A DNA stretch of 64,000 nt from Phormidium tenue FACHB-1052 (GTDB lineage: Bacteria; Cyanobacteriota; Cyanobacteriia; Phormidesmidales; Phormidesmidaceae): contig NZ_JACJQN010000005.1 in the NCBI RefSeq assembly GCF_014696675.1, positions 62,001 to 126,000 of the forward strand, read 5' to 3'. Each line of letters opens with the position of its first letter. Position 1 is the stretch's first letter. The notes beneath the pieces were generated by a model. It saw only the letters and a program-made list of their open reading frames with translations, made no database searches and was not told where the DNA came from. This document shows positions 16,396 to 46,782 of this stretch, in pieces. Position numbers and translations under genes: made by a program.

Positions 16396-17625
16396 ATGGC
16401 CACAATGGCCGCGCCCCAAAAGACCTTGGCCCCCATGAACAGACCTATGGAGTACGGTGCAGCACATGGTAACGAACCGATCGCCAAAAGCTGGCTCGCT
16501 CGCTGGTGGGAAGAGCTTAGCCCTATAGCGCAGTCAGCCCTAGTGCTGCTGGCCACGCCGCTGCTTGTTCTCAACGTCTGGGCGGTAGCAGTTATCTTTG
16601 GCTACTTCCGTTCAATTTTAGTCACCGTGCTGATCGCGGGTCTGCTGGCGTTTTTGCTCAGCTACCCCATGGGTCGCCTCGAAACCCTCGGCCTCAAGCG
16701 TGGCTTGGCCTCAACCCTGGTGCTGGTGCTGGCCCTGGTCGGGTTTTCGGGCCTGGCCATTGTGGTGTTGCCCTTTGTCATCGACCAGGGCCAGCAGCTA
16801 GTGATGCGACTGCCCGACTGGTTTGACTCCGGCAAAACCCAGCTCATGGTGCTCGACGGCAAGATGGCTGAATGGGGCTGGCCGATCAACCTTGATGGAC
16901 TGATTGCTCAGACCAGCGATCGCCTCAAGCGCGAGATCCAGTCCATCGCTGGGGAAGCCCTCAACCTCACCATCAACGTGGCGGTCTTTACCGCCAACAA
17001 GCTGCTCGATGTCGTGCTCACCGTGGTGCTCACCTTCTACCTGCTTCAGCATGGCGAAGAGGTGTGGGAAGGGGTGGTAGGACTACTGCCGACCCGCCTC
17101 CAGCAGCCGTTCTCAGAGACTCTGCGGCAGAGCTTTCGCAACTACTTTTTAGGCCAGTTCATCGTCGCTAGCTGCTTTGGCACCGCCCTGACGATTATTT
17201 TTGGTCTGCTAAATGTGCCCTTCGGGTCACTATTTGGCCTCACCGTGGGGCTGCTGGCGCTGGTGCCCTTTGGCGGCACCGTCGGTGTGATCATCGTTAC
17301 CCTACTGGTGGCCCTGCGGGATATCAAAATTGCCATCCCCATGCTGATTTCTGCCGTGATTGTGCAGCAGCTAGTCGAAAACGGCATTGCCCCTAGGGTA
17401 TTAGGCAGCGTCACCGGCTTGAACCCCTTCTGGGTCTTTATCGCCATTTTATCTGGGGCAAGGGTAGGAGGTCTGCTGGGGGTGATTGTGGCTGTCCCCG
17501 CCGCCGTGATTATCAAAGAGGCCTTGGTGGCGCTGCGTAATTCCCGTCAGATTGTTCCAGAGGCCGAAGCCACCGTTACCCCCGGCGCTAGCTCTCCCCC
17601 GGCCAAGGCGACCGTGCTACCCTAG
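16396..17625 (+). CDS. AI-2E family transporter (PerM/TqsA type)
   Basis: A 409-residue membrane protein. The first helices (ALVLLATPLLVLNVWAVAV and SILVTVLIAGLLAFLLSYP), a long soluble loop, then paired hydrophobic segments near the end with VPFGGTVGVI and NPFWVFIAILSGARVGGLLGVI, the family's signature. Members export small molecules (autoinducer-2 or Na+/H+ exchange has been reported), so the cargo is open. The N-terminus may start at an internal Met, since the first 40 residues are not conserved-looking. Upstream is a 194-base region with a small foldback (ACTCGAAACGAGT, about 16330). Its stop shares the palindrome CTAG with the stop of the convergent kinase gene. Confidence 0.88.
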   Translation: MATMAAPQKTLAPMNRPMEYGAAHGNEPIAKSWLARWWEELSPIAQSALVLLATPLLVLNVWAVAVIFGYFRSILVTVLIAGLLAFLLSYPMGRLETLGLKRGLASTLVLVLALVGFSGLAIVVLPFVIDQGQQLVMRLPDWFDSGKTQLMVLDGKMAEWGWPINLDGLIAQTSDRLKREIQSIAGEALNLTINVAVFTANKLLDVVLTVVLTFYLLQHGEEVWEGVVGLLPTRLQQPFSETLRQSFRNYFLGQFIVASCFGTALTIIFGLLNVPFGSLFGLTVGLLALVPFGGTVGVIIVTLLVALRDIKIAIPMLISAVIVQQLVENGIAPRVLGSVTGLNPFWVFIAILSGARVGGLLGVIVAVPAAVIIKEALVALRNSRQIVPEAEATVTPGASSPPAKATVLP

Positions 17626-19214
17626 AGCACACCTCGGCGGCCGTTGGGCATCACCGTAGACCAGTTGGTGCGAGCCGACGCCAGTTGGTCGGCAGAGATG
17701 AGCGCTCCCGTCAAGTCGGCTCCGCAGAGGTTGGCCCCCCGCAGGTTGGCGTTCGACAGACAGGCATGGGCGAGGTTGGCCCCCCGCAGATCGGCCCCCT
17801 CCAGATTGGCGTAGTGAAAGTAGGCCTTGACCAACTTGGCGTTGCGCAGGGTTGCTTTGCAGAGGTTGGCGCGGCCAAAGTTGGCGTTGCTCAGATCAGA
17901 GCCTTGAAAGTTGGCGTTGGGCAGCTTTGATTGATTGAAGTTAGCTTCGACAAGCAGGGTGCGCTGGAGGTCGAGATCCTTAAAGGTTTGCAGCGAAAAG
18001 TCGCGCCGACCTTTGGTGTACTTTTGCTTCACATCGTCCGAAGACAGTGCAGCAGCAGCGGGAGTAGCTTTTCGCGGGGTGGGCGAGCCGTTTTGAGTTG
18101 GCACCAGGGGAGCTATGCTCTTGGCCCCCGAATGCGATCGCTCCCGCCGAGCCCGAATCGCCGCCGCCATGCGAGACGACGGCGACCCCCCCCCTGAATT
18201 GCCGATCGCAGCATGGGGTGAAGAACCACTGACCGGCCCATAGCCGTTGCTATACCCGCTGGTGGCCGGCCCCAGGGAGGTTGGAAATGCCATGTTTTGC
18301 GCCAGGCTTTCCATATAGGGTTCGAGGTCTAGGTCGCGGTGGATGGCTTCCACACTTTGGTAGCGATGCTTGACCGAGATCTCTAACATCTTTTGCAGCA
18401 CACCAGCGAAGTGGTCGCTAATGTGCACGTGCTCACGCCACAGCAGTTCCCCGTTGTTGGGGTCGTAGTTGAGGTCTTTGGGAGCCTTGGCCGATAGCAA
18501 GTAAAGGCAGGTTACCCCCAGGGCGTAGATGTCGCTGGCGTAAACGGGACGCATGGCCATCTGCTCGGGGGGCGCGTAGCCGGGGGTGCCAATGGCGTAG
18601 GCGGTGAGGGCCGTCTGGTCAGAGTTGGCCGCCTGAGCCGGATTGACCTTGTCTTTTACCGCCCCAAAGTCGATCAACACCAGTTTTTTATCCTGGTCAC
18701 GCCGAATAATGTTCGCGGGTTTGATATCTCGGTGAATGACGTGGTTGTCGTGGACATACTGCACCATCGCCAGGATTTCGCTGAGGAACTGCTTCACCCC
18801 AGCCTCAGTGAAGGGGCCACCGCGCTTGACCTCCTGCTGTAGGGTGAGGCCATTGATATATTCCTGCACCAAAAAAAACTCTGTCCCGCTCTCAAAGTAG
18901 TCGAGTAGGCGGGGCAGTTGAGGATGGTTGCCGATCATCCCCAGGATCTTGGCTTCTCGCTTGAACAGATCACGCGCCATCTCCAGCACGTGGGGCGCTT
19001 CGGCGGAGGGGCGCAGCTGCTTGATGACGCAGGGGGGCTTGCCGGGCAGCAGCTCGTCGCGGGCCAGAAAGGTCGCCCCAAAGCCGCCGCGTCCCAGAGC
19101 CCGGATCATGCGGTAGCGGCCCCGCAGCAGGAGGTCGGCCCCGCACGTTTGACACTGGTTAACCGTGGGGGGATTCTTAGGCTTAGAACAATCAGGGTTG
19201 ATGCAGTAGCTCAT
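17622..19214 (-). CDS. Ser/Thr protein kinase with zinc-ribbon-like N-terminus and pentapeptide repeats (SpkB-like)
   Basis: A 530-residue cytosolic eukaryotic-type kinase. Cys4, Cys9, Cys21 and Cys24 form a zinc-ribbon-like cluster. The kinase domain is about residues 32-300: glycine loop LGRGGFGATF, catalytic loop HRDIKPANII, metal motif DFGAVKD and GTPGYAPPEQ are intact, so it should be active. A Ser/Pro-rich linker of about 100 residues follows, then 20 or so A(N/D)LXX pentapeptide repeats (about 420-515) predicted to form a right-handed beta-helix. Synechocystis SpkB has this same Cys-kinase-pentapeptide order, hence the name. It overlaps the AI-2E gene by 4 bp, tail to tail. Confidence 0.9.
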   Translation of the reverse strand: MSYCINPDCSKPKNPPTVNQCQTCGADLLLRGRYRMIRALGRGGFGATFLARDELLPGKPPCVIKQLRPSAEAPHVLEMARDLFKREAKILGMIGNHPQLPRLLDYFESGTEFFLVQEYINGLTLQQEVKRGGPFTEAGVKQFLSEILAMVQYVHDNHVIHRDIKPANIIRRDQDKKLVLIDFGAVKDKVNPAQAANSDQTALTAYAIGTPGYAPPEQMAMRPVYASDIYALGVTCLYLLSAKAPKDLNYDPNNGELLWREHVHISDHFAGVLQKMLEISVKHRYQSVEAIHRDLDLEPYMESLAQNMAFPTSLGPATSGYSNGYGPVSGSSPHAAIGNSGGGSPSSRMAAAIRARRERSHSGAKSIAPLVPTQNGSPTPRKATPAAAALSSDDVKQKYTKGRRDFSLQTFKDLDLQRTLLVEANFNQSKLPNANFQGSDLSNANFGRANLCKATLRNAKLVKAYFHYANLEGADLRGANLAHACLSNANLRGANLCGADLTGALISADQLASARTNWSTVMPNGRRGVL

Positions 19215-34199: not shown

Positions 34200-35264
34200 A
34201 TGCCCTCTGGCCCCATTCGCATCTTGCTGGTAGAAGATTCACCCGTTGCTCTAGTTCTGTTGCAGCGCATTTTGCGGGAGGCACCCGACATGGAAGTCGT
34301 GGGGGTGGCCCGCAACGGCCAGGAGGCCCTAGACCTGATGGCAACGGTGAAGCCAACTTTAATCTGCACCGATCTGCACATGCCCAAGATGAACGGGCTA
34401 GAGCTGACTGAAGAGGTCATGGCCCACTGCCCCTGCCCTATTTTGGTGATCAGTGCCTCGGTGCAGAAAGAAGATACCCAGACTGTCTTTCGCATTCTAG
34501 AAGCAGGGGCGCTAGATATCTTTCCTAAGCCCCGCACTGGCTTAGCTTCTGAGTATGAAAAGACTAAGACTGAGCTGCTGACCAAAATCCGAGTGCTGGC
34601 AGGGGTGTCGGTGTTCACTCACCGGCGGCGCAGCCCAGTTCCCATGGCTCCGCCGGAGCTACCCCTATCTACCACTGGGTTGGATAGACGCCCTCGGCTG
34701 CTCGCCTTGGGAGCATCTACGGGCGGCCCCCAGGCTCTGCTAGCGATTTTGCAGCAGCTGCCCAAAACCTTTCCGGTACCGATTGTGTGCGTACAGCACA
34801 TCAGCAATGGGTTTTTGCAGGGGTTGGTTGACTGGCTAGACAACAGCTGCGCCCTGCGAGTCACTATCGCCACAGCGGGCGCTGTGCCCCAGCCTGGTGT
34901 GGCCTACTTTCCCCCGGAGCGCCACCACTTAGAAATCGATGCGGGCGGGCGCATTCAGCTTTCTCAAGGTGAGCCAGTGGCCGGGCACTGCCCTTCGGTA
35001 ACGGTGATGTTTCAATCGGTGGCCACCTACTACCGCCGGTCAGCTGTGGGCGTGCTGCTCACGGGCATGGGCCGCGACGGGGCCGATGGTCTCCAGACCC
35101 TGTCCCAGGCAGGGGCGCTCACTATTGCCCAAGACGAGGCGAGTTGTGTGGTGTTTGGCATGCCCAAGGAGGCGATCGCCCTGGGGGCGGCCCAGCAGGT
35201 GCTGCCTTTGAGCGCGATTGCCCCTTTTTTGCTCAGCCAAGTTTTTGTCAGCGGCCTTAATTAG
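34200..35264 (+). CDS. cheB: Chemosensory methylesterase CheB (REC + catalytic domain)
   Basis: Removes methyl groups (and deamidates) from receptor signalling helices when phosphorylated by CheA. The 354-residue protein has a receiver domain (1-125; acidic pair in VEDSP and phospho-acceptor Asp58 in CTDLHMPKMNG) and the esterase domain (165-350). The catalytic triad is present: Ser173 in GASTGG, His200 in VQHIS, and Asp293 in TGMGRDGADG. It opens the chemosensory cluster and is followed by a small ORF, then the pentapeptide-repeat gene. CheB is absent from the well-studied Synechocystis taxis systems, so methylation control here is a notable difference. Confidence 0.93.
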   Translation: MPSGPIRILLVEDSPVALVLLQRILREAPDMEVVGVARNGQEALDLMATVKPTLICTDLHMPKMNGLELTEEVMAHCPCPILVISASVQKEDTQTVFRILEAGALDIFPKPRTGLASEYEKTKTELLTKIRVLAGVSVFTHRRRSPVPMAPPELPLSTTGLDRRPRLLALGASTGGPQALLAILQQLPKTFPVPIVCVQHISNGFLQGLVDWLDNSCALRVTIATAGAVPQPGVAYFPPERHHLEIDAGGRIQLSQGEPVAGHCPSVTVMFQSVATYYRRSAVGVLLTGMGRDGADGLQTLSQAGALTIAQDEASCVVFGMPKEAIALGAAQQVLPLSAIAPFLLSQVFVSGLN

Positions 35265-35301
35265 CTCCTAAAAGTATTCTTGGATACTTTATTGCTGTTT
35301 T

Positions 35302-35535
35302 TTGAGTTTTATTAATGCGATCGCGGCAACAGTGACTGAGGAAATTACCCAACTATGTGAACAAGCGTTAACCAGCACTCTCTCTGGGGAAAATTGGGAC
35401 TGGGGTAGCCTGCTTTGGCACCGTTATCGGCTAGCTACAGACCTCGTCAACGATCTGCTGCTCAGCTCTAGGGCCAAGGCATTTTTTGGTCTGGCGCAAA
35501 TTCATTTAGCAGCCCTTAGGCCGTACTGGGTTTAG
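35302..35535 (+). CDS. Small ORF between cheB and pentapeptide gene, unknown
   Basis: A possible 77-residue protein with a TTG start (35302) preceded by no clear ribosome site; there is a weak hairpin AAAGTAT/ATACTTT (35271-35290) and a T-run just before it. The translated sequence is amphipathic-helical in character (EEITQLCEQALTSTL, YRLATDLVNDLLLSS) and has no known motif. It lies in the cheB to pentapeptide gap on the coding strand, so it may be a real small gene, but composition alone cannot confirm it. Confidence 0.3.
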   Translation: MSFINAIAATVTEEITQLCEQALTSTLSGENWDWGSLLWHRYRLATDLVNDLLLSSRAKAFFGLAQIHLAALRPYWV

Positions 35536-35641
35536 CCACCAACGCATTACCCCTTTAGTTAACGCCTCTTTCAGCATCGTCACCTGGCGCAGGAGCCCCT
35601 AGTCAAACGGCCTCCATGCGCAACTTTGGGAGCACCTATCT

Positions 35642-36481
35642 ATGGCAAATGCGGAACATTTAGACATTCTCAACAAAGGGGTTGAGAGCTGGAATGCTTG
35701 GCGACTCCACAATCCCGGTGTGAGGCCAGACTTTCAGGGAGCAGATCTAGGCAAACTGCATCTGCCTGGCATCGACTTCCGCCACGCCAATTTTTATGAA
35801 GCCAACCTGAGAGAAAGCACATTCACTCGGGCTAATTTTGAGTCGTCAACCCTCTACCGTTGTGATCTCTGCATGGCTGATTTAAGGCGGGCGAACCTCA
35901 GCATGGTCGATTTTTATAAAACCAACCTCTACACCGCCAATCTGAGTAACGCCAATCTGCGCCACTCCCACTTTTACAAGGCAGATATGCAAGAGACGCT
36001 GCTCAACGATGCCGACCTGGGCGAGTCTAACTTCTACGAAGTCGATATGCGAGAGGCCATTCTGCAATCAGCCAACTTGGTCAGAACCACCTTTTATTAC
36101 TCCAATCTGTGCAACGCCAACCTGTGTCAAGCCAATCTGAACTGCGCCAGCATGATGGGAGCCAATATGGCCAAAGCCAATCTCAGGCGGGCTAGCTGTG
36201 TAGGCACTAACCTGTTTAGAGCGGTACTTAGCGGTGCCGACCTCACTGAAGCCGATCTGCGCGAAGCGGTGCTGCGGCTAGCCGATCTGAGCAACGCCTC
36301 GTTAGAAAATGCCAACCTGTTTCGGGCCAACCTCTCTGAGGCTTGCCTCGACTATGCCCAGCTAGCGGGGGCCAACTTCAAAAAAACCAACCTGTGGCGC
36401 GTCAACCTGGGTCAGCTGATTTTGACCCATCCCGGCCATGACCGAGATGCCATCACCATTGACTCGAGCGCCCTCAACTAG
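35642..36481 (+). CDS. Pentapeptide-repeat protein inside the chemosensory cluster
   Basis: A 279-residue protein made of about 40 A(N/D)LXX repeats from residue 30 to 262 (for example NLYTANLSNANLRHSHFY, ADLTEADLREAVLRLADL), predicted to form a right-handed quadrilateral beta-helix. The N-terminal 25 residues (EHLDILNKGVESWNAWRLHN) are the usual capping segment (LxxLxxGvxxWNxWR) of a large cyanobacterial pentapeptide subfamily. Many repeats carry Phe or Tyr next to the Ala (FYKAD, FYEVD) in a pattern that changes along the rod. It ends 2 bp before cheR, so coupled translation is very likely and a role as scaffold or adaptor of the receptor system is inferred. No catalytic motif. Confidence 0.9.
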   Translation: MANAEHLDILNKGVESWNAWRLHNPGVRPDFQGADLGKLHLPGIDFRHANFYEANLRESTFTRANFESSTLYRCDLCMADLRRANLSMVDFYKTNLYTANLSNANLRHSHFYKADMQETLLNDADLGESNFYEVDMREAILQSANLVRTTFYYSNLCNANLCQANLNCASMMGANMAKANLRRASCVGTNLFRAVLSGADLTEADLREAVLRLADLSNASLENANLFRANLSEACLDYAQLAGANFKKTNLWRVNLGQLILTHPGHDRDAITIDSSALN

Positions 36482-36483
36482 CT

Positions 36484-38001
36484 ATGGACGATCTGATCCT
36501 AAAGCGCATCAGCGAACTCATCGCCGACCATTCTGGCCTGTGTATCCGCCCCCAAGATTTTCAGATCCTGGCAGATAAAGTTTGGCTGCGGGCCAAAGCG
36601 TTGGGGCTGAGAACCTTAGCCGACTACCACGACTACCTCAAGGCATTAGACCACGGTTCTCTTGCCCTGGATCGTTTCAAGGCTCAACCTAGCCTGCCCC
36701 AGCAGCGGTCTGAATGGCAAGAGCTGTACTCGATTTTGACGATCAATGAAAGCTACTTCTTTCGAGACAGCAACCAGCTCAGGCTACTGAGCGATCGCCT
36801 CCTGCCCGAAATCATCCAGCGCAAGCAGGACGCGGCTCCCCTAGGTGCCAAACCCAGTCTGCGCATTTGGAGCGCCGGTTGCTCCACTGGGGAAGAGCTA
36901 TACTCAATTGCGATCGCCCTCGACCAGCTCAACTTTGCGTGGCCCCAGTGGGATGTGCAGCTAATTGGCACCGACATCAGCGCCGCCGCCATCCACAGCG
37001 CTCGCCAGGGGCTTTATAGCAGCTGGTCTTTTCGGCAAACCCCTCCGGCTCTACAACAGAAATATTTTCAGGCCGATCGCCAGGCCTATAAAATCTGCGA
37101 TCGCCTTCAGCAGCACGTGGTCTTTCAGGTTGGCAATCTGCTCAAAGACCCCTGCCCTAGCCTGGGGCCGGGGCCAGGCGACTTAGACCTAATTTTGTGC
37201 CGTAACGTATTTATTTATCTCGATCGCCAAGCAATTGGTCAAATTATTCAAAGGTTTCACAGCGCCCTGGTTCCCCAAGGGTATTTGCTCACCGGCCATA
37301 CCGAACTCTACGGCCAAAACACCAGCCCGTTTCTGGTCACGAGTTTCCCCGAAACCGTGGTCTATCAAAAACCACCCCAGGTCGCTCTACCCCTACCCGC
37401 CGCACCAGCCGCTCAACGGCATTTAGCCAGACCCCAGCCCCCTCGTCTGGCCCCCAAAACCGCACTTTTCAGTCTGGATGATAGCTTGACCGCAGCCCTA
37501 CAGGAAGCAGCTGCGTTCCTCCGGCAAGACGATTACACCAGCGCCATTCGAGCCGCTAAACAACTTTACCGTACCCATCCAAACTGCACCGCTGCGCGCC
37601 AGATTGCCGCTCGGGCCTACGCCAACACTGGTTGCTATAGCCAGGCCAAACAACTCTGCCAGCAGGTGATCCAGGAGCAGCCCCTCAGCCTCGAGATGCA
37701 CTATCTGCTGGCCCAAATCGCCGAAGATGAGAATGATCTAGAAACCGCAAAAGAGCATCTGCGTAAAATTATTTATCTAGACCCTGACTTCGTTAAAGCC
37801 TATCTTGATTTAGCCAGCATTTACGATCGCACCCGGCAGCCTGAGAAAGCTAAAACAACCCGCGAGCATGCTCTCACTCTATTGGCAAAACTGCCTCCCA
37901 GCACCGTATTAGATGACCACAGCGATGCCACCGTTGCCCAATGGCAAGCGCACCTCAAGCAGCAGGTCGCAGGCGGCGATCGCCCATCATCTCAAGATTG
38001 A
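36484..38001 (+). CDS. cheR: Chemosensory methyltransferase CheR with TPR domain (WspC-like)
   Basis: Methylates receptor glutamates using S-adenosylmethionine. The 505-residue protein has the CheR N-terminal helical part (1-75), the SAM-binding fold with IWSAGCSTGEELYSIAIAL (about 123-141), then LIGTDISAAAI and DLILCRNVFIYLD, all strongly conserved. A basic/Pro linker (about 300-325) leads to three or so TPR units (about 340-480: AAAFLRQDDYTSAIRAAKQL, QIAARAYANTGCYSQAKQL, LEMHYLLAQIAEDENDLETA). CheR-TPR fusions are typical of Wsp- and Frz-type alternative systems, where the TPR docks receptors. Starts 2 bp after the pentapeptide gene. Confidence 0.93.
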   Translation: MDDLILKRISELIADHSGLCIRPQDFQILADKVWLRAKALGLRTLADYHDYLKALDHGSLALDRFKAQPSLPQQRSEWQELYSILTINESYFFRDSNQLRLLSDRLLPEIIQRKQDAAPLGAKPSLRIWSAGCSTGEELYSIAIALDQLNFAWPQWDVQLIGTDISAAAIHSARQGLYSSWSFRQTPPALQQKYFQADRQAYKICDRLQQHVVFQVGNLLKDPCPSLGPGPGDLDLILCRNVFIYLDRQAIGQIIQRFHSALVPQGYLLTGHTELYGQNTSPFLVTSFPETVVYQKPPQVALPLPAAPAAQRHLARPQPPRLAPKTALFSLDDSLTAALQEAAAFLRQDDYTSAIRAAKQLYRTHPNCTAARQIAARAYANTGCYSQAKQLCQQVIQEQPLSLEMHYLLAQIAEDENDLETAKEHLRKIIYLDPDFVKAYLDLASIYDRTRQPEKAKTTREHALTLLAKLPPSTVLDDHSDATVAQWQAHLKQQVAGGDRPSSQD

Positions 38002-38356
38002 TCTCGTCTCCACCCAAAGCAAAATCACGGTTTTTGTAGGATGGCTCAATGGTCGCGCCATGGGCGGCGCGCTGAAAATATGGCGATCGCCATTGCGCTA
38101 GGATACCGACTGTCACCCACTCAAACTGGTGCAAGACAACGGTGCGTCGCGATCGCTGCAAGCGTATGGAGAATGTTCTAATTATTCTGGCAATGGCTAG
38201 AACCCAGACATTTTCTCTAAATTGCGGATAACTCATTCCACGGGGGAATGCTAAGCCCGAAGCATTGATTTCTCTCTAACCCAAACTCAAGCGGGTCGGC
38301 TAGAGGGATCTGCGTTCTACCCTGCCGTGCTTTATTCCCCTTGGGGGCAATCCGCG
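38002..38356. other. Gap between cheR and cheW genes
   Basis: About 355 bases inside the otherwise tight cluster. It contains a small foldback CATTCC/GGAATG (about 38234-38250) and an AT-rich piece (about 38168-38225) that could be an internal promoter. A minus-strand open frame (37955-38236) overlaps the end of cheR and has no recognisable motif. The region suggests that the second half of the cluster can be transcribed separately. Confidence 0.45.
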
Positions 38357-39367
38357 ATGACCCCGACATCCTACCTTTTGTTCATGCTAGACGGTGCCCA
38401 CTATGGGCTAGCCGCTGAGGCCGTACAAGAAATGTTCTTGCTGCCGGCCCTGATCTCGGTACCTGAATCGGGGCCAGAAGTCGCTGGCATGCTAAACCTA
38501 CGCGGTCAGCTGCTGCCGGTCATCAACCTCAGGGTGTGCCTGGGCTATCCCCAGCGGCCCAACGACCTGAGCCAGGCCATCATTGTGGTGCAGTGCGGCA
38601 GCCGACAGATCGGCCTCGTCGTCGATCAAATTCAAAACGTAGAGGCGATCGCCCCGAGTAGCATCACTGCGGCCCTAGAGACTCCCTATTTTGGCTATGG
38701 GGCAAACCCGCTGACTGTCGGGTTTGCCCGCCAGGGAGACACCGTCATCGTTTTGATCGACCCAGTGGCCCTGGAACAGGGCTCCCACAGTGCATCCTCA
38801 GCCCCGGTTGCGGAGGTGAAGACCAACCGGTTCATAGCGCAGTTTAGCCCTGGCGAGCAACAGGTGCTACAGGCTCGAGCCGCCGGATTAACCCAGTTGA
38901 TGGCCGACGAAAGCACGTCAGATCAGGCGGCCCTGGCGGTTATCGGCTTAGAGGGCGAGCGCTTTGCCCTGGGGTTAGAAACCGTGCACGAATTTGCTGA
39001 AGTGCCTCAGATCACGCCTATTCCCTGCTGCCCACCGCACATTGTGGGAAACATAAATCTGCGCGGTGAAATTTTAACCCTAGTGGATGTGCGTCACTTT
39101 CTAAATTTGGCTCCAGCCGCTCCTCTCCAGCCTAAAACAGCGGTGGTTATGCGGCTGGGATCCCTAGTAGCAGGGGTTGTCATTGACGATGTTTTTGATG
39201 TGATTTATCTGCATGCTGCGGAGATAGCAGCGACGCCCACCGCCGTCCACTCCAGCAGCAACCCCTATCTCAAAGGATTTGTTCAGCACGGCGACTCTAC
39301 GGTAACCCTTCTAGATCTGCCAAAATTGCTGACTACGGGCGCTCTTGTTGTCGATCATTCAGACTAG
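38357..39367 (+). CDS. cheW: Double CheW-domain scaffold protein
   Basis: A 336-residue protein of two tandem CheW domains, the scaffold that links receptors to CheA. Domain 1 spans about 3-145 (YLLFMLDGAHYGLAAEAVQEMFLLP, GMLNLRGQLLPVINL) and domain 2 about 190-330 (AVIGLEGERFALGLETVHEF, GNINLRGEILTLVDVRHFL). In Wsp systems two separate CheW proteins (WspB and WspD) do this; here they are one chain. I use the ATG at 38357 since domain 1 starts there; a GTG at 38327 is in frame. The linker is about 45 residues, basic and Glu/Gln rich. Six bp before the receptor gene. Confidence 0.9.
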   Translation: MTPTSYLLFMLDGAHYGLAAEAVQEMFLLPALISVPESGPEVAGMLNLRGQLLPVINLRVCLGYPQRPNDLSQAIIVVQCGSRQIGLVVDQIQNVEAIAPSSITAALETPYFGYGANPLTVGFARQGDTVIVLIDPVALEQGSHSASSAPVAEVKTNRFIAQFSPGEQQVLQARAAGLTQLMADESTSDQAALAVIGLEGERFALGLETVHEFAEVPQITPIPCCPPHIVGNINLRGEILTLVDVRHFLNLAPAAPLQPKTAVVMRLGSLVAGVVIDDVFDVIYLHAAEIAATPTAVHSSSNPYLKGFVQHGDSTVTLLDLPKLLTTGALVVDHSD

Positions 39368-39373
39368 TTAACC

Positions 39374-40909
39374 ATGAAAAATTCCCTAAACTTAAACGCT
39401 AAAGTTAGTCCTTTTGGTCTTTTTGCTCCATTCTCATCCCCGCAAGATGCCGTGAACAAACGCAAGTTTTGGAAGCTACGCCACTGGATTATATTGGGCT
39501 ACTCTGTGCCAGTACTGGCAATCATAGTCTCTGCGGGCATGACGGTTCTCAATGTGCGCCAGCTTGTCATGATCTCTGCGGAACTCAAACGCGCCTGGGA
39601 AGTGCATGAAAACGTTGACCATGTCAACCTCAACGTTCAGATTATGGCCCGTGCTACTCGCGGCTATTTACTCCAGAGAAATCCGACCTCTTTGTTAGAT
39701 TTCAACAAAGCCAAAACGGACTATCTGACCGTGATCGATGAGTTAGATGCCCAGGTTAATAATGAAGAGCAGCGGCAAAATTTGGCCCAGGTTAGAACTC
39801 TGATTGATGAGTCTATTACTGTGCACCAAGGCATGATTGATCTGGTCAATCAAAATCAGACTAATGCCGGTGTGCAGGTCTGGCGAGAGAGCAACGGGCG
39901 GGCCTTGAACAGCGAGCTGACCAACCTGTTGACCGCCATGGGAGACCTGGAAAGTGAGATTGTGGCCAAAGATGAAGCCGTCCAGGCGGCGGCCTTACAA
40001 CGGCTGCAAGTTACCCTGCTGACAGCGGCGACCCTGTCATTATTGCTATCGGCTCTGATTGGTACGTTGGTAGTGCTCAAGGCCTCGCGCATCATGAACC
40101 GAGCGGCGGGCGATATTGTTAGCTCAGCCAGCGAAATTGCCACTAGCGTTGAGCAGCAGGAGCGCAGCAGCAGCCAGCAGGCCGCTTCGGTGAGCGAAAC
40201 CAGCACCACTATGGATGAGCTAGGGGCCTCGTCGCGGCAGTCGGCAGAGCAGGCTGAAGCCGCCGCTGCCGGTGCCCAACAGGCCCTAGCCTTGGCCGAA
40301 GGTGGCACCCGCGCCGTTGAACGTAGCCTCGACGGGATGGGCGACCTGAGAGAGAAGGTGGATGCGATCGCCGATCAAATCCTCCGTTTGAGCGCGCAGA
40401 CCAATCAAATTGGCGGCATTTCTAGCTTGGTCAGCGATTTGGCCAACCAAACCAACATGCTGGCTCTCAATGCCGCCGTCGAGGCGGTGCGCGCCGGCGA
40501 GCACGGCAAGGGCTTTGCGGTCGTCTCGGGCGAGATTCGCAAGCTGGCCGATCAAAGCAAAAAATCGGCTGAGAAGATTAATGCTTTGGTAGCCGACATT
40601 CAAACCGCCATCAACTCAACAGTAATGGTTACCGACGAGGGTACCAAAACCGTCGAAGAGGGGGTCAGAATTGCTGAGGAAACCGCTGATGCGTTTGCCG
40701 GGGTGGCCGAGGCGGTCAACAACGTGGTGCTCAACAGCCAGCAGATCTCCCTCAACGTGAAGCAACAGGCGGTTGCCATTCAGCAGGTGGTGAGCGCCAT
40801 GAACAGCCTCAACACCGGCGCCCAGGAAACCGCCCACGGCATTACCCAGATCAAGATCGGCACCCATCAACTCAACGAGAGCGCCCTACAGCTCAAGGTG
40901 GCTATTTAA
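39374..40909 (+). CDS. Methyl-accepting chemotaxis protein, HAMP-less
   Basis: A 511-residue transmembrane receptor. TM1 about 38-60 and TM2 about 212-236 enclose a helical periplasmic sensor of about 150 residues ([29 protein letters not shown]) resembling CHASE3 or a four-helix bundle. TM2 runs directly into the signalling helices (residue 245 on); no HAMP domain can be seen. The hairpin tip is [33 protein letters not shown], where VRAGE and GKGF replace the more usual ARAGE and GRGF. The coiled coil is 36 heptads or fewer, with Gln/Glu-rich segments ([21 protein letters not shown]) as candidate methylation sites. The gene is in the cheW-mcp-cheA run. Confidence 0.92.
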
Positions 40910-41026
40910 GCGGCTTTCCCCTCTCTGACGGCCCCACGCCGAAGGCTGGGGAGAAAAATCCATCCCAGGTTATGCCGACTTACCTGCCCCTGCAACCCAT
41001 GCTCCACCGAAGGGAAGCGCTCTGCC

Positions 41027-43966
41027 ATGATGATTGACGACACCGAACTGCGTGACATCTTTAAGACCGCCAGTGAGGAGCGCTTGCAGGCCCTCGACGA
41101 CGGGCTGCTCCACCTCGAAAACCACCCCGACGATGCGGCCACCCTCGAAGCTCTGATGCGCGAGGCCCATTCCCTCAAGGGTGACGGCAACATGCTGGGG
41201 GTGACTGACCTGGGTAAAGTAGCCCACCAAATTGAGCACATCTTCGGGGCCATTGGTCGTGGCGAGCAAGTTCTCTGCGCCGATCTGTTTGACCGCCTTG
41301 CCCACGGGGTAGCGGCTATGCGCCAGATCGTTCACGCTGCGGTGACGGGGGAAGCGGCCCAGGTGAAGGTGTTCTATGTGCTAGCTAAGCTGATGGGGGC
41401 CGAAGCCGCCCTGCCTGCTCCAGTAATGGCCCTAGAGGTGGACGATGCTATTTTCGATCGCGCGATCGCCCCCATCAGCACCAACGGTGTTATCCTCGAC
41501 CAGGCCGTCTTGGCTCAGTCGTTGGCGGTAGGGGAGGCAACTCATCAAAACGGTAGGACACCGACTGATGAGCCTGTAGCCGCGCCTAGTCTCAGCGATC
41601 GCTACATTGCCGACAGCGAACTGCGCGACATTTTCAAGACCGCCAGCCAAGAGCGCCTGCAAGCCCTCGACGACGGGCTGCTCCACCTCGAAAAGCACCC
41701 CGACGACGCGGCCACCCTCGAAGCACTCATGCGCGAGGCTCATTCCCTCAAGGGCGATGGCAACATGCTCGGGGTCACCGATCTCGGCAAGGTCGCCCAC
41801 CACATCGAGCAGATTCTCGGCGATCTGCTGCGCGGCGACGCAGAACTCTCGGCGGATCTATGCGATCGCCTCTCCCATGGCCTAACCGCCATGAATCAGC
41901 TAGTGCACGAAGCCACCACTGGCGAACCCACCGACGTCAACCTGTTCTACGTTCTCGCCGATCTCATGGGTGCCTCCCCCAGCCCCCAACCCGCTAGCCC
42001 CACCGCTGACACCATCAGTGCCCCTCCCCCAATCCCAGATCTACTCAATCACTCCCTAGCATTACTAGATCCCCCTGCCCCCATTCCCTCACCCCCTACT
42101 CCCTCACCCCTTCACTCAACCACCCCCTTACCCACCCATAACTCCCCCGACCCCGACCCCATCACCGCCACCGACTACCGCATCGAAACCATCCGCGTCC
42201 CCACCCAGAGCCTCGACGCGCTGATGACCCAGAGCGGTGAGCTGACAGTTACCAAAGTTCGCGTTGCCCACCGGCTAGCCGAGATCGACGCCATCAACAA
42301 CCTATGGGAAGAGTGGAGTCGCGATTTTTTGATGAGTCGCTTTTTGCTTCACGATGCCCAGCAGGGCAAGCCCGTCTGGCAACAGCTCGACAGTTTTCAA
42401 AATCGTACCGAGCAGCATCTAGAGCGGTTTGGGACACTGGTGCGTCAGCTCGGCAGTGCCCTCCACGCCGACACCACTCGCCTTGAGACCATCACCGACA
42501 GCCTAGAGGAGGGCATTCGCACCCTTCGCCTGCTGCCGCTATCTACGCTCTTTAACCAATTTCCCCGCCTGGTGCGCGACCTGGCCCGTCAGCAGGGCAA
42601 AGCGGTGAAACTGCTGATTGAAGGGGGCGACACTCGCGCCGACAAGCGCATTCTTGAAGAGATGAAAGACCCACTGCTGCACATGATTCACAATGCCATT
42701 GACCATGGCGTTGAGTCGCCCGCCGAGCGCCTGCGGCAGGGCAAACCTGAGGTGGCTACCATCACCCTGCGCGGCTACCGCACCTCGGCGGGCATCAGCA
42801 TTGAAGTCAGCGACGATGGCCGGGGGCTAGACGTGGAGTCGATCAAACAAGCGGCTGTCCGTCGGGGGCTATATCGGGCAGAAGAACTAGAGCTGCTAAC
42901 CGCCGCTCAAATTCAAGGGCTGATTCTTAGTCCTGGGTTTTCGAGCCGCACGCTGGTCACCGAGATCTCCGGGCGCGGCGTCGGCCTTGATGTACTCCGC
43001 ACCAACGTCGATCGCCTCAGGGGCAACATTGATGTCGAGTCCAAACCGGGCGAGGGCTGCACCCTCCGCATTCAGTTGGGCACTACTCTGGCCACAGCCC
43101 ACATTCTGCTAGTGGCGGCAGGCGGTCAAACCTTTGCCCTGCCTGCCGAGTTTGTGGAGACAGCCTGCCTGGTGCAAACCAGCGAGATCTTTACGTTGGA
43201 GGGCCACAGCGCGATCAGGCACGGCGATCGCCCACTCTCGGTAGTGTGGCTGGCCGATCTGCTGGGGCTGCCGAGGGTTGACCCTAAACCGCGCGGGCGT
43301 TGGCAATCCGACCAGGGAGAACGCCCCCAGCAGCGGCATGCCTGCATTATTTTGCAGTCTGGCCCAGATCGCCTGGGCCTCTTTGTCGAGGCCTTGCTAG
43401 ACGAGCAGGAGGTGGTGCTCAAACCCCAAAGCCAGTTGCTCAAGCGGGTGCGGTATATCTCTGGAGCCACTATTTTAGGCACTGGTGATGTCTGCATGGT
43501 GCTCAACCCCCAAGATTTGATTGCGGCGGTACGCCATCGGGGCAGTTCCCTAGCGCTACCGGAGGCGAGCCAGGCTGAGACCGCGACCCCGCCCGAGGCC
43601 CGTCGCCGATGTATTCTGCTGGTGGAAGACTCGATCGCCACCCGCACCCAGGAAAAACGCATTCTAGAATCGGCGGGCTACGAAGTGGTGACCGCAGTGG
43701 ATGGCCTAGACGGCTTTAACAAGCTACAGACCAGGTCTTTTGACGCCGTCGTCTCTGATGTGCAAATGCCAAATTTGGACGGCCTAGGCCTCACCCAGCG
43801 CATTCGGCAGCAGCGCGAATATAGCGAACTCCCCGTGGTGCTAGTGACCACCTTAGCCAGTGAGGACGATCGCCGCCGAGGAGCCGAGGCCGGAGCCAAC
43901 GCCTATATCACCAAGGGCAGTTTTACCCAAGATGTGCTGTTTGAAACCCTCAACCGACTGATTTAG
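41027..43966 (+). CDS. cheA: CheA-type hybrid histidine kinase with two Hpt domains and a receiver
   Basis: The 979-residue kinase of the cluster. Hpt1 (about 5-122) and Hpt2 (196-313) each have the phospho-His motif AHSLKGDGN (His48 and His239), so there are two phosphorylation sites. A Pro-rich linker (about 320-385) with C-rich DNA precedes the dimerisation and ATPase domains: NAIDHGVESPAERL (N box), SDDGRGLD (G1) and GRGVGLDVL (G2). Then the CheW-like regulatory domain (about 695-840) and a C-terminal receiver (862-979: VEDSIATRTQEKRIL, AVVSDVQMPNLDG, final YITKGSF). The CheA-REC layout is that of WspE/FrzE. A 117-base gap separates it from the receptor gene. Confidence 0.94.
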   Translation: MMIDDTELRDIFKTASEERLQALDDGLLHLENHPDDAATLEALMREAHSLKGDGNMLGVTDLGKVAHQIEHIFGAIGRGEQVLCADLFDRLAHGVAAMRQIVHAAVTGEAAQVKVFYVLAKLMGAEAALPAPVMALEVDDAIFDRAIAPISTNGVILDQAVLAQSLAVGEATHQNGRTPTDEPVAAPSLSDRYIADSELRDIFKTASQERLQALDDGLLHLEKHPDDAATLEALMREAHSLKGDGNMLGVTDLGKVAHHIEQILGDLLRGDAELSADLCDRLSHGLTAMNQLVHEATTGEPTDVNLFYVLADLMGASPSPQPASPTADTISAPPPIPDLLNHSLALLDPPAPIPSPPTPSPLHSTTPLPTHNSPDPDPITATDYRIETIRVPTQSLDALMTQSGELTVTKVRVAHRLAEIDAINNLWEEWSRDFLMSRFLLHDAQQGKPVWQQLDSFQNRTEQHLERFGTLVRQLGSALHADTTRLETITDSLEEGIRTLRLLPLSTLFNQFPRLVRDLARQQGKAVKLLIEGGDTRADKRILEEMKDPLLHMIHNAIDHGVESPAERLRQGKPEVATITLRGYRTSAGISIEVSDDGRGLDVESIKQAAVRRGLYRAEELELLTAAQIQGLILSPGFSSRTLVTEISGRGVGLDVLRTNVDRLRGNIDVESKPGEGCTLRIQLGTTLATAHILLVAAGGQTFALPAEFVETACLVQTSEIFTLEGHSAIRHGDRPLSVVWLADLLGLPRVDPKPRGRWQSDQGERPQQRHACIILQSGPDRLGLFVEALLDEQEVVLKPQSQLLKRVRYISGATILGTGDVCMVLNPQDLIAAVRHRGSSLALPEASQAETATPPEARRRCILLVEDSIATRTQEKRILESAGYEVVTAVDGLDGFNKLQTRSFDAVVSDVQMPNLDGLGLTQRIRQQREYSELPVVLVTTLASEDDRRRGAEAGANAYITKGSFTQDVLFETLNRLI
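41039..41804 (+). repeat. Tandem duplication of the Hpt coding region in cheA
   Basis: The DNA for residues 5-67 and 196-258 encodes near-identical protein (only about four residue changes over 62) at a spacing of 573 bp, while the second halves of the two Hpt domains are much less alike. The sharp change in similarity suggests recent duplication with gene conversion of the first halves. Confidence 0.85.
42060..42150 (+). repeat. C-rich repeat tract in the cheA linker
   Basis: Tandem imperfect copies of CCCTCACCCCCTACTCCCTC-like sequence code for the Pro/Ser/Thr linker. The same kind of tract, in reverse orientation, is at 12217-12265 and 61556-61685; here it has been read in frame. Confidence 0.65.
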
Positions 43967-44149
43967 CCACCTTCGAGTCACCTCGACAGAGCTGTTCAGC
44001 CGTCTTAAGTAGTAAACAAATCTAAAACAAAAGCACAGAAAACCTAGTTTTTTCAGGCTCTATTTGAACCGGAAAGGCGCTCAAAATTTGAGTTGGCGGA
44101 AAAGGCCCAAAGCAGCTTCGCAGCAGTGCAGCGACTTGGGATACTAAAG

Positions 44150-44548
44150 CTAATTTGTGGCTAAGCCGTTGGGCAGCAGCCTACCCATGACAGCCTTGAG
44201 CCGCTCAGGTTCGCAGGGTTTGGTCAAATAGCCAGAAGCTCCCGCCATGCGGGCTTCTTGCCGATCGGCCTCGGTATCGCGAGACGTGACCATCACAATT
44301 GGCAGGTTTTTGAACCGGGGCAGACTTCGCACCGTACGGCAAAGCTCAAACCCATCGATGCCGGGCATTGAGATATCGAGCAGCAGGGCTTCGATCATCT
44401 CTTGAGAAATTACAGTCAGCGCATCCACCGCATTGTCGGCCAGCAGCACCCGATAACTGTTATCTAAGGCGCGTTTAATCATCTGCTGACTAATTAAGCT
44501 GTCATCCACCGATAGGACGGTTTGTTTGGTGACGGCGCAGGTGGACAT
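44150..44548 (-). CDS. Single-domain response regulator (CheY-like)
   Basis: A 132-residue receiver with no output domain, from the ATG at 44546-44548. Acidic pair SVDDSLIS, phospho-acceptor Asp in LLLDISMPGIDGFEL, Thr/Ser in MVTSRDT and Lys in YLTKPCEPE are all present. It is opposite in direction to the cheA gene, which ends 183 bases away. It could be the phosphate sink or diffusible output of the CheA system, in place of WspR (inference). The region 43967-44149 between the two genes holds a stretch of CTGTTCAGCCGTCTTAAGT but no clear terminator. Confidence 0.9.
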   Translation of the reverse strand: MSTCAVTKQTVLSVDDSLISQQMIKRALDNSYRVLLADNAVDALTVISQEMIEALLLDISMPGIDGFELCRTVRSLPRFKNLPIVMVTSRDTEADRQEARMAGASGYLTKPCEPERLKAVMGRLLPNGLATN

Positions 44549-44851
44549 AGGGGAACAACCTCTTGAAATCATGTGGGCGCTTGCTATAGTTATGCCCAAA
44601 AATTAATCCTATTTATAACGTACTTATACGCAACGGCCTGATAACTACTCAAGTTTCCTATGGTTGAGGCCTAAATACCGACACAATTCCCGTTGTCAGT
44701 CCTAGGCCGCACCCGATCAAGCTGCTTGAAGCGATCGCTGTACTGATCCCGCTGTCCAGCTCTCCACCTAGCTGTGGCAAACGACATCAATAACAGGGTC
44801 AATGGTGTTAGAGTAGTGAGCCACAATTATCGGTAAGGGCTGGCTTGGGGG
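44549..44851. other. Divergent intergenic region, receiver / mtnB
   Basis: About 303 bases with likely promoters for both sides. The receiver side is AT-rich (ATTAATCCTATTTATAACG, about 44600). The mtnB side has ATGGTGTTAGAGTAGTGAG (about 44801), with TAGAGT a weak -10 candidate. No SAM riboswitch or other RNA element is recognisable. Confidence 0.45.
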
Positions 44852-45481
44852 ATGGAGTTTGAGGCGATCGCGCAGTCGTTAGCAGAGGCAGGCGGCTTCT
44901 TGGCCAGCCAAGGCTGGGCACCGGCCACCAGCGGCAACTACTCGGCTCGACTGGCCGAGGAGCAGGTAGCCATTACCGTATCGGGCCGCGACAAGGGACA
45001 GCTCACCCCCGCCGACATTATGGTGGTCGATAGCCAGGGGCAACCCTTCAGCCCAGGCAAGCGGGCATCGGCTGAAACGCTGCTACACACTAGCCTCTAC
45101 CTGGCTTACCCAGAAGTGGGTGCTGTGCTGCACACCCACTCCATAGACTGCGTCAGTCTCTCTCGCTGGCTGCTGAGCCGGGGACAAGACAGCCTAGTGC
45201 TAACAAACTATGAACTGCTCAAGGCATTGCCGGGTATCACCACCCATGATGGAGAGGTTGCCATCCCAATCGTGGCCAACAGCCAAGATATGGTAGCTCT
45301 GAGCAAGACCGTGTTAACCCGGCTACAGGCAGTGCAGGCACCAGTGGGCTACATCATCGCGGGCCACGGATTGTATAGCTGGGGGGCGACGGTGCCCCAG
45401 GCGCGCATGGCCACTGAGGCCTTGGAGGTGCTGGTGAGCTGCGCCCTACAGGCCATACTGCTCGATCAAAGATTTGCTTAG
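44852..45481 (+). CDS. mtnB: Methylthioribulose-1-phosphate dehydratase
   Basis: Dehydrates 5-methylthioribulose-1-phosphate in the methionine salvage pathway. The 209-residue protein is a class II aldolase-like enzyme: N-terminal GWAPATSGNYSARL, zinc His pair in VLHTHSIDCV, and C-terminal AGHGLYSWGATV with the third His; the expected acidic residue is Glu in ASAETLLHTSLY. The length is typical (about 205). First gene of mtnB-mtnD-mtnC. mtnA and mtnN are not in the window. Start ATG at 44852 after GGCTTGGGGGATGG. Confidence 0.92.
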   Translation: MEFEAIAQSLAEAGGFLASQGWAPATSGNYSARLAEEQVAITVSGRDKGQLTPADIMVVDSQGQPFSPGKRASAETLLHTSLYLAYPEVGAVLHTHSIDCVSLSRWLLSRGQDSLVLTNYELLKALPGITTHDGEVAIPIVANSQDMVALSKTVLTRLQAVQAPVGYIIAGHGLYSWGATVPQARMATEALEVLVSCALQAILLDQRFA

Positions 45482-45530
45482 CCCCTTTTACTTATCCCCT
45501 CAGGACACCCTCGATTCAAGGACTACTCCC

Positions 45531-46082
45531 ATGACCCTACTTCGTGTTTTTAGCGATCAAGATGGCGCGACCCTGCTAGATGAGTACCGGGATGCGGAGG
45601 CGATCGCCGCTGCTCTCGCCAGCGCTGGCGTCCGCTTTGAGCAGTGGCAGACTCAGGCACCTCTGCCCCCAGCCGCCGACCCCGAAGCCATTTTGACCGC
45701 CTACGCCAAAGACATCGATCGCCTCAAAGCCGAGGGTGGCTACGTCACCGCCGACGTGATTCGCATGTACCCAGGGCATCCCCAAAAGACCGAGCTGCGG
45801 CAGAAGTTTTTGGATGAGCACATTCATAAAGAAGACGAGGTGCGCTTCTTCGTGGAGGGGCAGGCGGTATTTTACCTACACCTGGGCGATAAAATCTACG
45901 CCACCCTCTGCACCGCTGGCGACCTCATCGGCGTGCCCGCCAACACCCCCCACTGGTTCGACATGGGTGAGGAACCTCAGTTTGCCGCCATTCGCCTATT
46001 TTGCAACCCCGAGGGCTGGGTGGCCCATTTCACCGACAGCCCCATCGCTAAGAGATATCCTGATTACCATGCTTTTGCTTGA
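45531..46082 (+). CDS. mtnD: Acireductone dioxygenase
   Basis: Oxidises acireductone to the methionine precursor 2-keto-4-methylthiobutyrate (iron form) or to a side product (nickel form). The 183-residue cupin has the metal ligands in DEHIHKEDEVRFFVEG (two His and Glu) and a further His in TPHWFDMGEE. Start at the ATG at 45531 (MTLLRVFSDQDG); the frame is open back to 45474 but that part is not conserved-looking and overlaps mtnB. The gene is 49 bp after mtnB and overlaps mtnC by 14 bp, so the three are one operon. Confidence 0.93.
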   Translation: MTLLRVFSDQDGATLLDEYRDAEAIAAALASAGVRFEQWQTQAPLPPAADPEAILTAYAKDIDRLKAEGGYVTADVIRMYPGHPQKTELRQKFLDEHIHKEDEVRFFVEGQAVFYLHLGDKIYATLCTAGDLIGVPANTPHWFDMGEEPQFAAIRLFCNPEGWVAHFTDSPIAKRYPDYHAFA

Positions 46083-46782
46083 AGAGCAGCCGTTAGGGGC
46101 GATCGTGCTTGATATTGAGGGCACCACCACCGATATCGCCTTTGTCAAAAACACCCTGTTTCCCTACGCTACGGAGCGGCTAGAGGCCTTTATGGCTGAG
46201 CTGGCCCCCACCGCCGAGGGGCAGGCCATTTTGGCCCAGGTGCGGGCTGAGGTTGGCGATGCCGACCTGTCTGTAGAAGACTGCATCGCCCAACTGCTGG
46301 CCTGGGCCAAGGCCGACCAAAAGGTTACCCCCCTCAAAGCCGTGCAGGGCATGATTTGGGACGAGGGCTACCGCACCAAGGCCTACTACAGCCACGTCTA
46401 TGACGATGCCGCCGCCCATATTCAGGAGTGGCATCGACGGGGGGTGCCGCTATACATCTATTCATCAGGCTCGATCGCAGCTCAAAAGTTGCTGTTTGCC
46501 CACACCATTGTGGGCGATCTCACCCCTTGTTTCCAGGGATATTTCGACACCACCACCGGAGCGAAGGTGGATGCAACTTCCTACGAAAACATCGCCAATA
46601 CGCTAGAAATTGCCTCTAAGGAATTGCTGTTTCTGTCTGACCATCTAGGCGAGCTGAAAGCGGCTCAACAGGCGGGCTGGCAGGTGCGTGCAGTACAGCG
46701 CCCCGGCACCGCCGATTTTCCACCAGATCTGCCATCAATTAAGCACTTTGGGGAATTGCCCATCGCGTTTAGCGATGCTTAG
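46069..46782 (+). CDS. mtnC: Enolase-phosphatase E1 (acireductone synthase)
   Basis: Makes acireductone from diketo-5-methylthiopentyl-1-phosphate by enolisation and dephosphorylation. The 237-residue HAD-type enzyme has motif I VLDIEGTTTDIAFVK (DxE(G)TT is the E1 variant), motif II YIYSSGS and the later LFLSDHLGELKAA with acidic residues. Start at ATG 46069, which overlaps the end of mtnD by 14 bp; the much longer frame to 45814 is the mtnD sequence in another phase and is rejected. Followed at once by a bidirectional terminator. Confidence 0.93.
   Translation: MLLLEEQPLGAIVLDIEGTTTDIAFVKNTLFPYATERLEAFMAELAPTAEGQAILAQVRAEVGDADLSVEDCIAQLLAWAKADQKVTPLKAVQGMIWDEGYRTKAYYSHVYDDAAAHIQEWHRRGVPLYIYSSGSIAAQKLLFAHTIVGDLTPCFQGYFDTTTGAKVDATSYENIANTLEIASKELLFLSDHLGELKAAQQAGWQVRAVQRPGTADFPPDLPSIKHFGELPIAFSDA

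Follow-up and report, generated by a model that had tools for sequence, protein, structure and literature searches.

The locus described here raises two questions: which kind of chemosensory system it encodes, and what a pentapeptide-repeat protein (PRP) does inside it. It lies in a window of 64,000 nucleotides, the whole stretch of DNA that was analysed, and all positions are those of the window unless stated otherwise. The host genome (5.82 Mb) is that of a filamentous cyanobacterium, which is assigned to the Nodosilinea group through named relatives of the PRP locus. Our answer, to which we give about even chances when all its parts are taken jointly, is that the locus may encode a chemosensory system that is complete, methylation-competent and of a class specific to cyanobacteria, with a type IV pilus output and with the PRP as a scaffold of adaptation.

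Organization of the cluster

The cluster is composed of the following features.

34200..35264, + strand: CheB, receiver and methylesterase (Pfam PF00072 and PF01339)
35265..35641, no strand: intergenic, non-coding region with conserved blocks (alignment of 10 loci, then of more loci)
35642..36481, + strand: pentapeptide-repeat protein (PRP), 279 aa (Pfam PF00805)
36484..38001, + strand: CheR methyltransferase with C-terminal TPR (Pfam PF01739, TPR_19, TPR_8)
38327..39367, + strand: tandem CheW, two CheW domains in one ORF (Pfam PF01584, two stretches)
39374..40909, + strand: chemoreceptor, CHASE3 sensor and MCPsignal, HAMP not detected (Pfam)
41027..43966, + strand: CheA hybrid kinase, with Hpt, Hpt, kinase core, CheW-like domain and C-terminal REC (Pfam)
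44150..44599, − strand: lone CheY-like receiver (Pfam PF00072)

An earlier, sequence-only reading of this DNA had given the same order of parts (cheB, PRP, cheR-TPR, double cheW, receptor, cheA-REC and an opposing receiver), and Pfam agrees on each of these parts and its coordinates. The active-site motifs of CheB (GASTGG and LTGMGRDG), CheR and the lone receiver are intact, and the receiver gene faces the cluster from the opposite strand. Both Hpt domains of CheA carry the phospho-accepting H motif, and the pair is 73% identical over 137 residues. The CheA of one relative (L135) has a single Hpt motif only, so the Hpt copy number varies in the genus. On its ordinary side, the locus is an alternative chemosensory system with a CheR-TPR protein. 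Its PRP was said to be closely coupled to cheR, and the gap between the PRP stop codon and cheR is indeed 2 bp, a pairing that recurs in relatives.

The small ORF at 35302-35535, previously counted as a gene between cheB and the PRP, is rejected. Most close relatives do not keep its reading frame open, whereas blocks of the intergenic DNA are maintained. In the alignment of 10 loci, the conserved blocks are 35341-35372 (GAAATTACCCAACTATGTGAACAAGCGTTAAC, 32 bp), 35557-35583 and the ribosome-binding region. The 32-bp element was also considered as a regulon-wide motif and rejected, since each of the four genomes searched has a single site, always at the PRP locus (reversed control, 0). No Rfam family matched the conserved intergenic element, and promoter and terminator scans of the region performed no better than shuffles. 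The region is probably the promoter or 5′ leader of the PRP-cheR operon.

Methionine-salvage-type genes adjoin the SAM-using CheR cluster at 44852-46782, namely a class II aldolase and genes that are acireductone dioxygenase-like and enolase-phosphatase-like, the latter two named by sequence reading only. The class II aldolase and acireductone dioxygenase-like genes stay neighbours in several relatives. Elsewhere in the genome (G000:C36:169522-169853; L004, L005), a CheR gene is seemingly split across two frames, with a TGA present, and is possibly a pseudogene or an assembly error. According to the ORF list, a serine/threonine-kinase-like ORF at 17622-19214 ends in C-terminal pentapeptide repeats.

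Chemosensory class and output

The CheR search found a match in 64 of the 386 genomes of the phylum. Among the stronger CheR matches, whose loci were fetched, the order cheR, tandem cheW, receptor(s), cheA and cheB is common across many families; cheB lies 5′ of the PRP in window-type loci and downstream of cheA in others. The CheA kinase cores form one clade of cyanobacteria only, apart from F5, F6 and F7 and from both Tax CheAs of the host genome. We labelled the reference loci by F class from their gene neighbourhoods, and the class placement comes from our own trees rather than from the models of Wuichet and Zhulin. Receptors of this cluster type have a CHASE3 match in 19 of 25 cases and HAMP in none of the 25. 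We found no paper in the open-access literature that treats this cluster class, and the review passages that we consulted do not treat it either. The class is widespread in cyanobacteria, yet apparently without experimental study.

The sequence-only reading had taken the cluster for a Wsp-like system that controls c-di-GMP. Wsp systems of Pseudomonas, Burkholderiales and rhizobia share with the window a CheR fused to TPR (Pfam), a CheA with C-terminal REC, CheB and two CheW domains in total, and CheR-TPR proteins are reported to mark alternative-function pathways (PMC3447774). The window differs in gene order, in the presence of the PRP and in several of the parts. The Wsp operons of Mesorhizobium and Azoarcus have separate cheW genes on either side of cheR and an output gene of the PleD or diguanylate-cyclase type, whereas the window has one fused CheW ORF and no REC-GGDEF protein (WspR) in or beside the cluster. 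The earlier remark that the cluster contains no GGDEF gene is borne out by the ORF list and Pfam, and such a gene occurs in just three mapped cluster loci (L051, L064 and L139). Mesorhizobium WspA has 4HB and HAMP and its WspE a single Hpt; the window receptor has CHASE3 with no HAMP detected, and its CheA has two Hpt domains. In a second CheA tree, five Wsp CheAs form their own clade with 100% support and the window CheA falls outside, although a tree constrained to make the cyanobacterial CheA clade sister to the Wsp clade is not rejected by the AU test (p = 0.098). The lone receiver groups with those of PATAN regulators, as described below. A Wsp-type system that would steer c-di-GMP by way of a remote cyclase, such as the GGDEF protein at 8.4 kb, is thus very improbable.

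A second rival is a phototaxis system of the PixJ/Tax type. Like the Tax, Pix and Hmp type IV pilus systems, the window system is cyanobacterial, has a multi-Hpt CheA with REC and has a receiver related to those of PATAN regulators; a tree with Tax as the sister group of the CheA clade is not rejected either (AU p = 0.121). However, Pfam finds no photoreceptor (GAF) domain in the window receptor, which has CHASE3, whereas Pix receptors bear photosensors (PMC7690835). A Tax receptor of this genome carries HAMP, which was not detected in the window receptor. In the trees, the window CheA lies outside the Tax clade and groups neither with the two Tax CheAs encoded elsewhere in this genome nor with that of Allocoleopsis Tax. 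The CheA tree that the sequence-only reading had proposed as a check places the kinase in the cyanobacteria-only clade, outside the Wsp and Tax clades. The window also has both CheB and CheR. The sequence-only reading was right that the best-known taxis systems of cyanobacteria lack the two, as Synechocystis does (PMC4758948). We consider a PixJ/Tax-like phototaxis system improbable, and return to the cyanobacteria-specific class.

Two outputs had been proposed, the lone receiver and a distant cyclase. The receiver stands as the probable output protein, and the cyclase is very improbable, since the gene content gives no support for control of c-di-GMP and the receiver points to PATAN and the type IV pilus. 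Close relatives of the receiver adjoin the cluster in many genomes. The receiver tree unites cluster CheYs with PATAN regulators in a single group (ultrafast bootstrap 95), with weak inner branches (46-55) for the placement of the fused proteins of L044, L046 and L049. These three proteins join a receiver of this type to a PATAN-like domain at the N terminus, called by DUF4388 above the cut-off in L044 and by a local profile seeded with these proteins in L046 and L049. A PATAN-REC gene lies close by in 15 cluster loci. In the host genome, DUF4388 genes number just three and are confined to contig C6; pilus-type ATPases are present. PATAN regulators are known to bind PilB1/PilC (PMC12288463; PMC7690835). 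Because the receiver is in the PATAN-regulator family and is fused to PATAN in three relatives, a type IV pilus output appears likelier than c-di-GMP. The window receiver itself lacks a PATAN domain (Pfam), so its putative pilus target is an extrapolation.

The pentapeptide-repeat rod and its linkage to cheR

The PRP consists of a helical N-cap and about 11-12 four-sided coils, which AlphaFold2 models as a confident rod (mean pLDDT 94). PF00805, AlphaFold2 and Foldseek agree that it has eight or more A(D/N)LXX repeats in tandem and the right-handed four-sided beta helix of the family. Tyrosines at positions 52, 72, 92, 112, 132 and 152, every 20 residues on six successive coils, form a ladder on one face. 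Each comes right after the inward residue of its coil, and from known fold geometry, not from coordinates, it follows that the ladder tyrosines are exposed. Of the outward faces of the PRP, the one with the ladder is the most conserved. All linked PRPs have a ladder of six tyrosines, or of five in two distant families, while 17 other PRPs have tyrosine runs of at most two.

Within the genus, 18 of the 28 genomes have a PRP match, 17 of them intact. A cognate CheR (at least 58% identity) lies directly 3′ of the PRP in all 17, which are the Nodosilinea-group genomes with this cluster. The kinase was checked in six of the other eleven genus genomes. Four (G386, G405, G409 and G410) have no CheA of this class, and one (G402) has a divergent cluster from which the PRP is absent. 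The sixth (G408) has lost the kinase, and its PRP is a frameshifted relic in which homology to a relative stops at the PRP stop codon. This relic supports the PRP belonging to the system, as a single case examined in a low-coverage MAG (L171) taken as the same genome. Our search of cyanobacterial genomes for the PRP-cheR order, which the sequence-only reading had suggested, also found the pair in four genomes beyond the genus: G170 and G450/Halomicronema (same family), G508 (family f5) and G424 (family f47). Such recurrence exceeds what chance would give. That reading was to fall if the PRP were absent from this place in all relatives; the PRP is conserved.

Several candidates and copies lie outside this pattern. 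Four PRPs that precede cheR in genus g4 (L048, L059, L063 and L065) were rejected as counterparts, the first being a PRP-GST fusion which the other three appear to resemble, and so was the PRP before cheR in L083, a PRP-TPR fusion. Nodosilinea nodulosa PCC 7104 has a second intact PRP copy (L170 10001-10837) with no che genes alongside. The neighbours of this copy are the PAS histidine kinase, crp and ABC genes also found around the window cluster, and the copy is probably a leftover at the ancestral site. G524 has a full cluster, cheR included, with its PRP elsewhere, and G571 (95% complete) has a ladder PRP and no CheA of this class. The majority of genomes with this chemosensory class have no PRP, which is thus dispensable for the class.

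Where the PRP is present, it is the slowest-changing part of the cluster. Its identity is 92-99% where that of CheR is 60-90%, three genus loci excepted, in which the PRP is at 83-85%. Its dN/dS of 0.017-0.025 is the lowest of the cluster, against 0.06-0.21 for the other genes, as estimated by a simple counting method with some dS values saturated. This suggests that the PRP is a working component rather than a passenger.

The PRP may instead regulate something else, in the manner of HetL or of the gyrase-binding Qnr/MfpA type, and merely share an operon with cheR. HetL is its best named relative: the NCBIfam HetL model gives 199.3 bits against a cut-off of 260, which leaves the PRP outside that family, and the top Foldseek match, the nearest natural solved structure, is HetL (3du1). 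HetL of Nostoc is likewise cytoplasmic, single-domain and of similar length, whereas the PRP is set apart by its tyrosine ladder and by linkage to chemosensory rather than heterocyst genes. The unlinked PRP copies, including that of a genome that lacks this CheA class, also fit such a role. However, the linkage is held in three families and stayed with cheR upon an operon split, and the ladder tracks the linkage. The PRP is also near balanced in charge (26 K+R, 31 D+E), whereas DNA-mimic PRPs of the Qnr/MfpA gyrase-binding type are strongly acidic. We therefore regard regulation of another target as rather unlikely and keep to a role of the PRP within the chemosensory system.

Operon order alone does not distinguish CheR, the receptor and CheA as the partner of the PRP. 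The best hint for CheR comes from G424, in which the operon is split: the PRP and cheR are on one contig, and cheW, the receptor, cheA and cheB are on another. HetL binds HetR mainly via one face of its helix, in what was termed only the second PRP complex (PMC7476756). A face-on docking surface thus has a precedent, and the one-face tyrosine ladder of the PRP may be compared with it. A HEAT-repeat gene lies between cheB and cheR in Methylobacterium, Azospirillum and Eleftheria (L150 4629-6041, L153 2876-4384 and L157 4872-6370), in the same position as the PRP. Both proteins are repeat solenoids, although the folds are unrelated and the CheA of those clusters belongs to a different clade. By this analogy, a solenoid is perhaps a recurrent partner of CheR.

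Proposed working and significance

We propose that the CHASE3 membrane receptor senses an outside signal and alters the activity of CheA, which would phosphorylate the lone receiver as output. By analogy with PATAN-family regulators, the phosphorylated receiver would most likely act on the type IV pilus motor or a polarity hub, and CheR and CheB would adapt the receptor. The soluble PRP rod would be an addition to the system, made in the Nodosilinea group as well as in a small number of other lineages. It may dock by its conserved tyrosine-ladder face to an adaptation partner, the likeliest candidates being CheR-TPR and the receptor helices on which CheR acts, and thereby scaffold or localise adaptation. 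More specifically, and only tentatively, the PRP could be integral to the array or adaptation complex of this uncharacterised class, as a rigid tyrosine-ladder rod by which CheR-TPR or the receptor bundle is kept in position.

What is new is the PRP as a conserved member of a chemosensory system, with a sequence signature; we found no paper in the open-access literature that connects a PRP with a CheR system. The model cyanobacterial pilus-based taxis runs without CheR and CheB. A widespread cyanobacterial system with both proteins intact makes adaptation directly testable. The partners of PRPs are seldom known, and this rod offers a short list of candidates and a defined surface to mutate.
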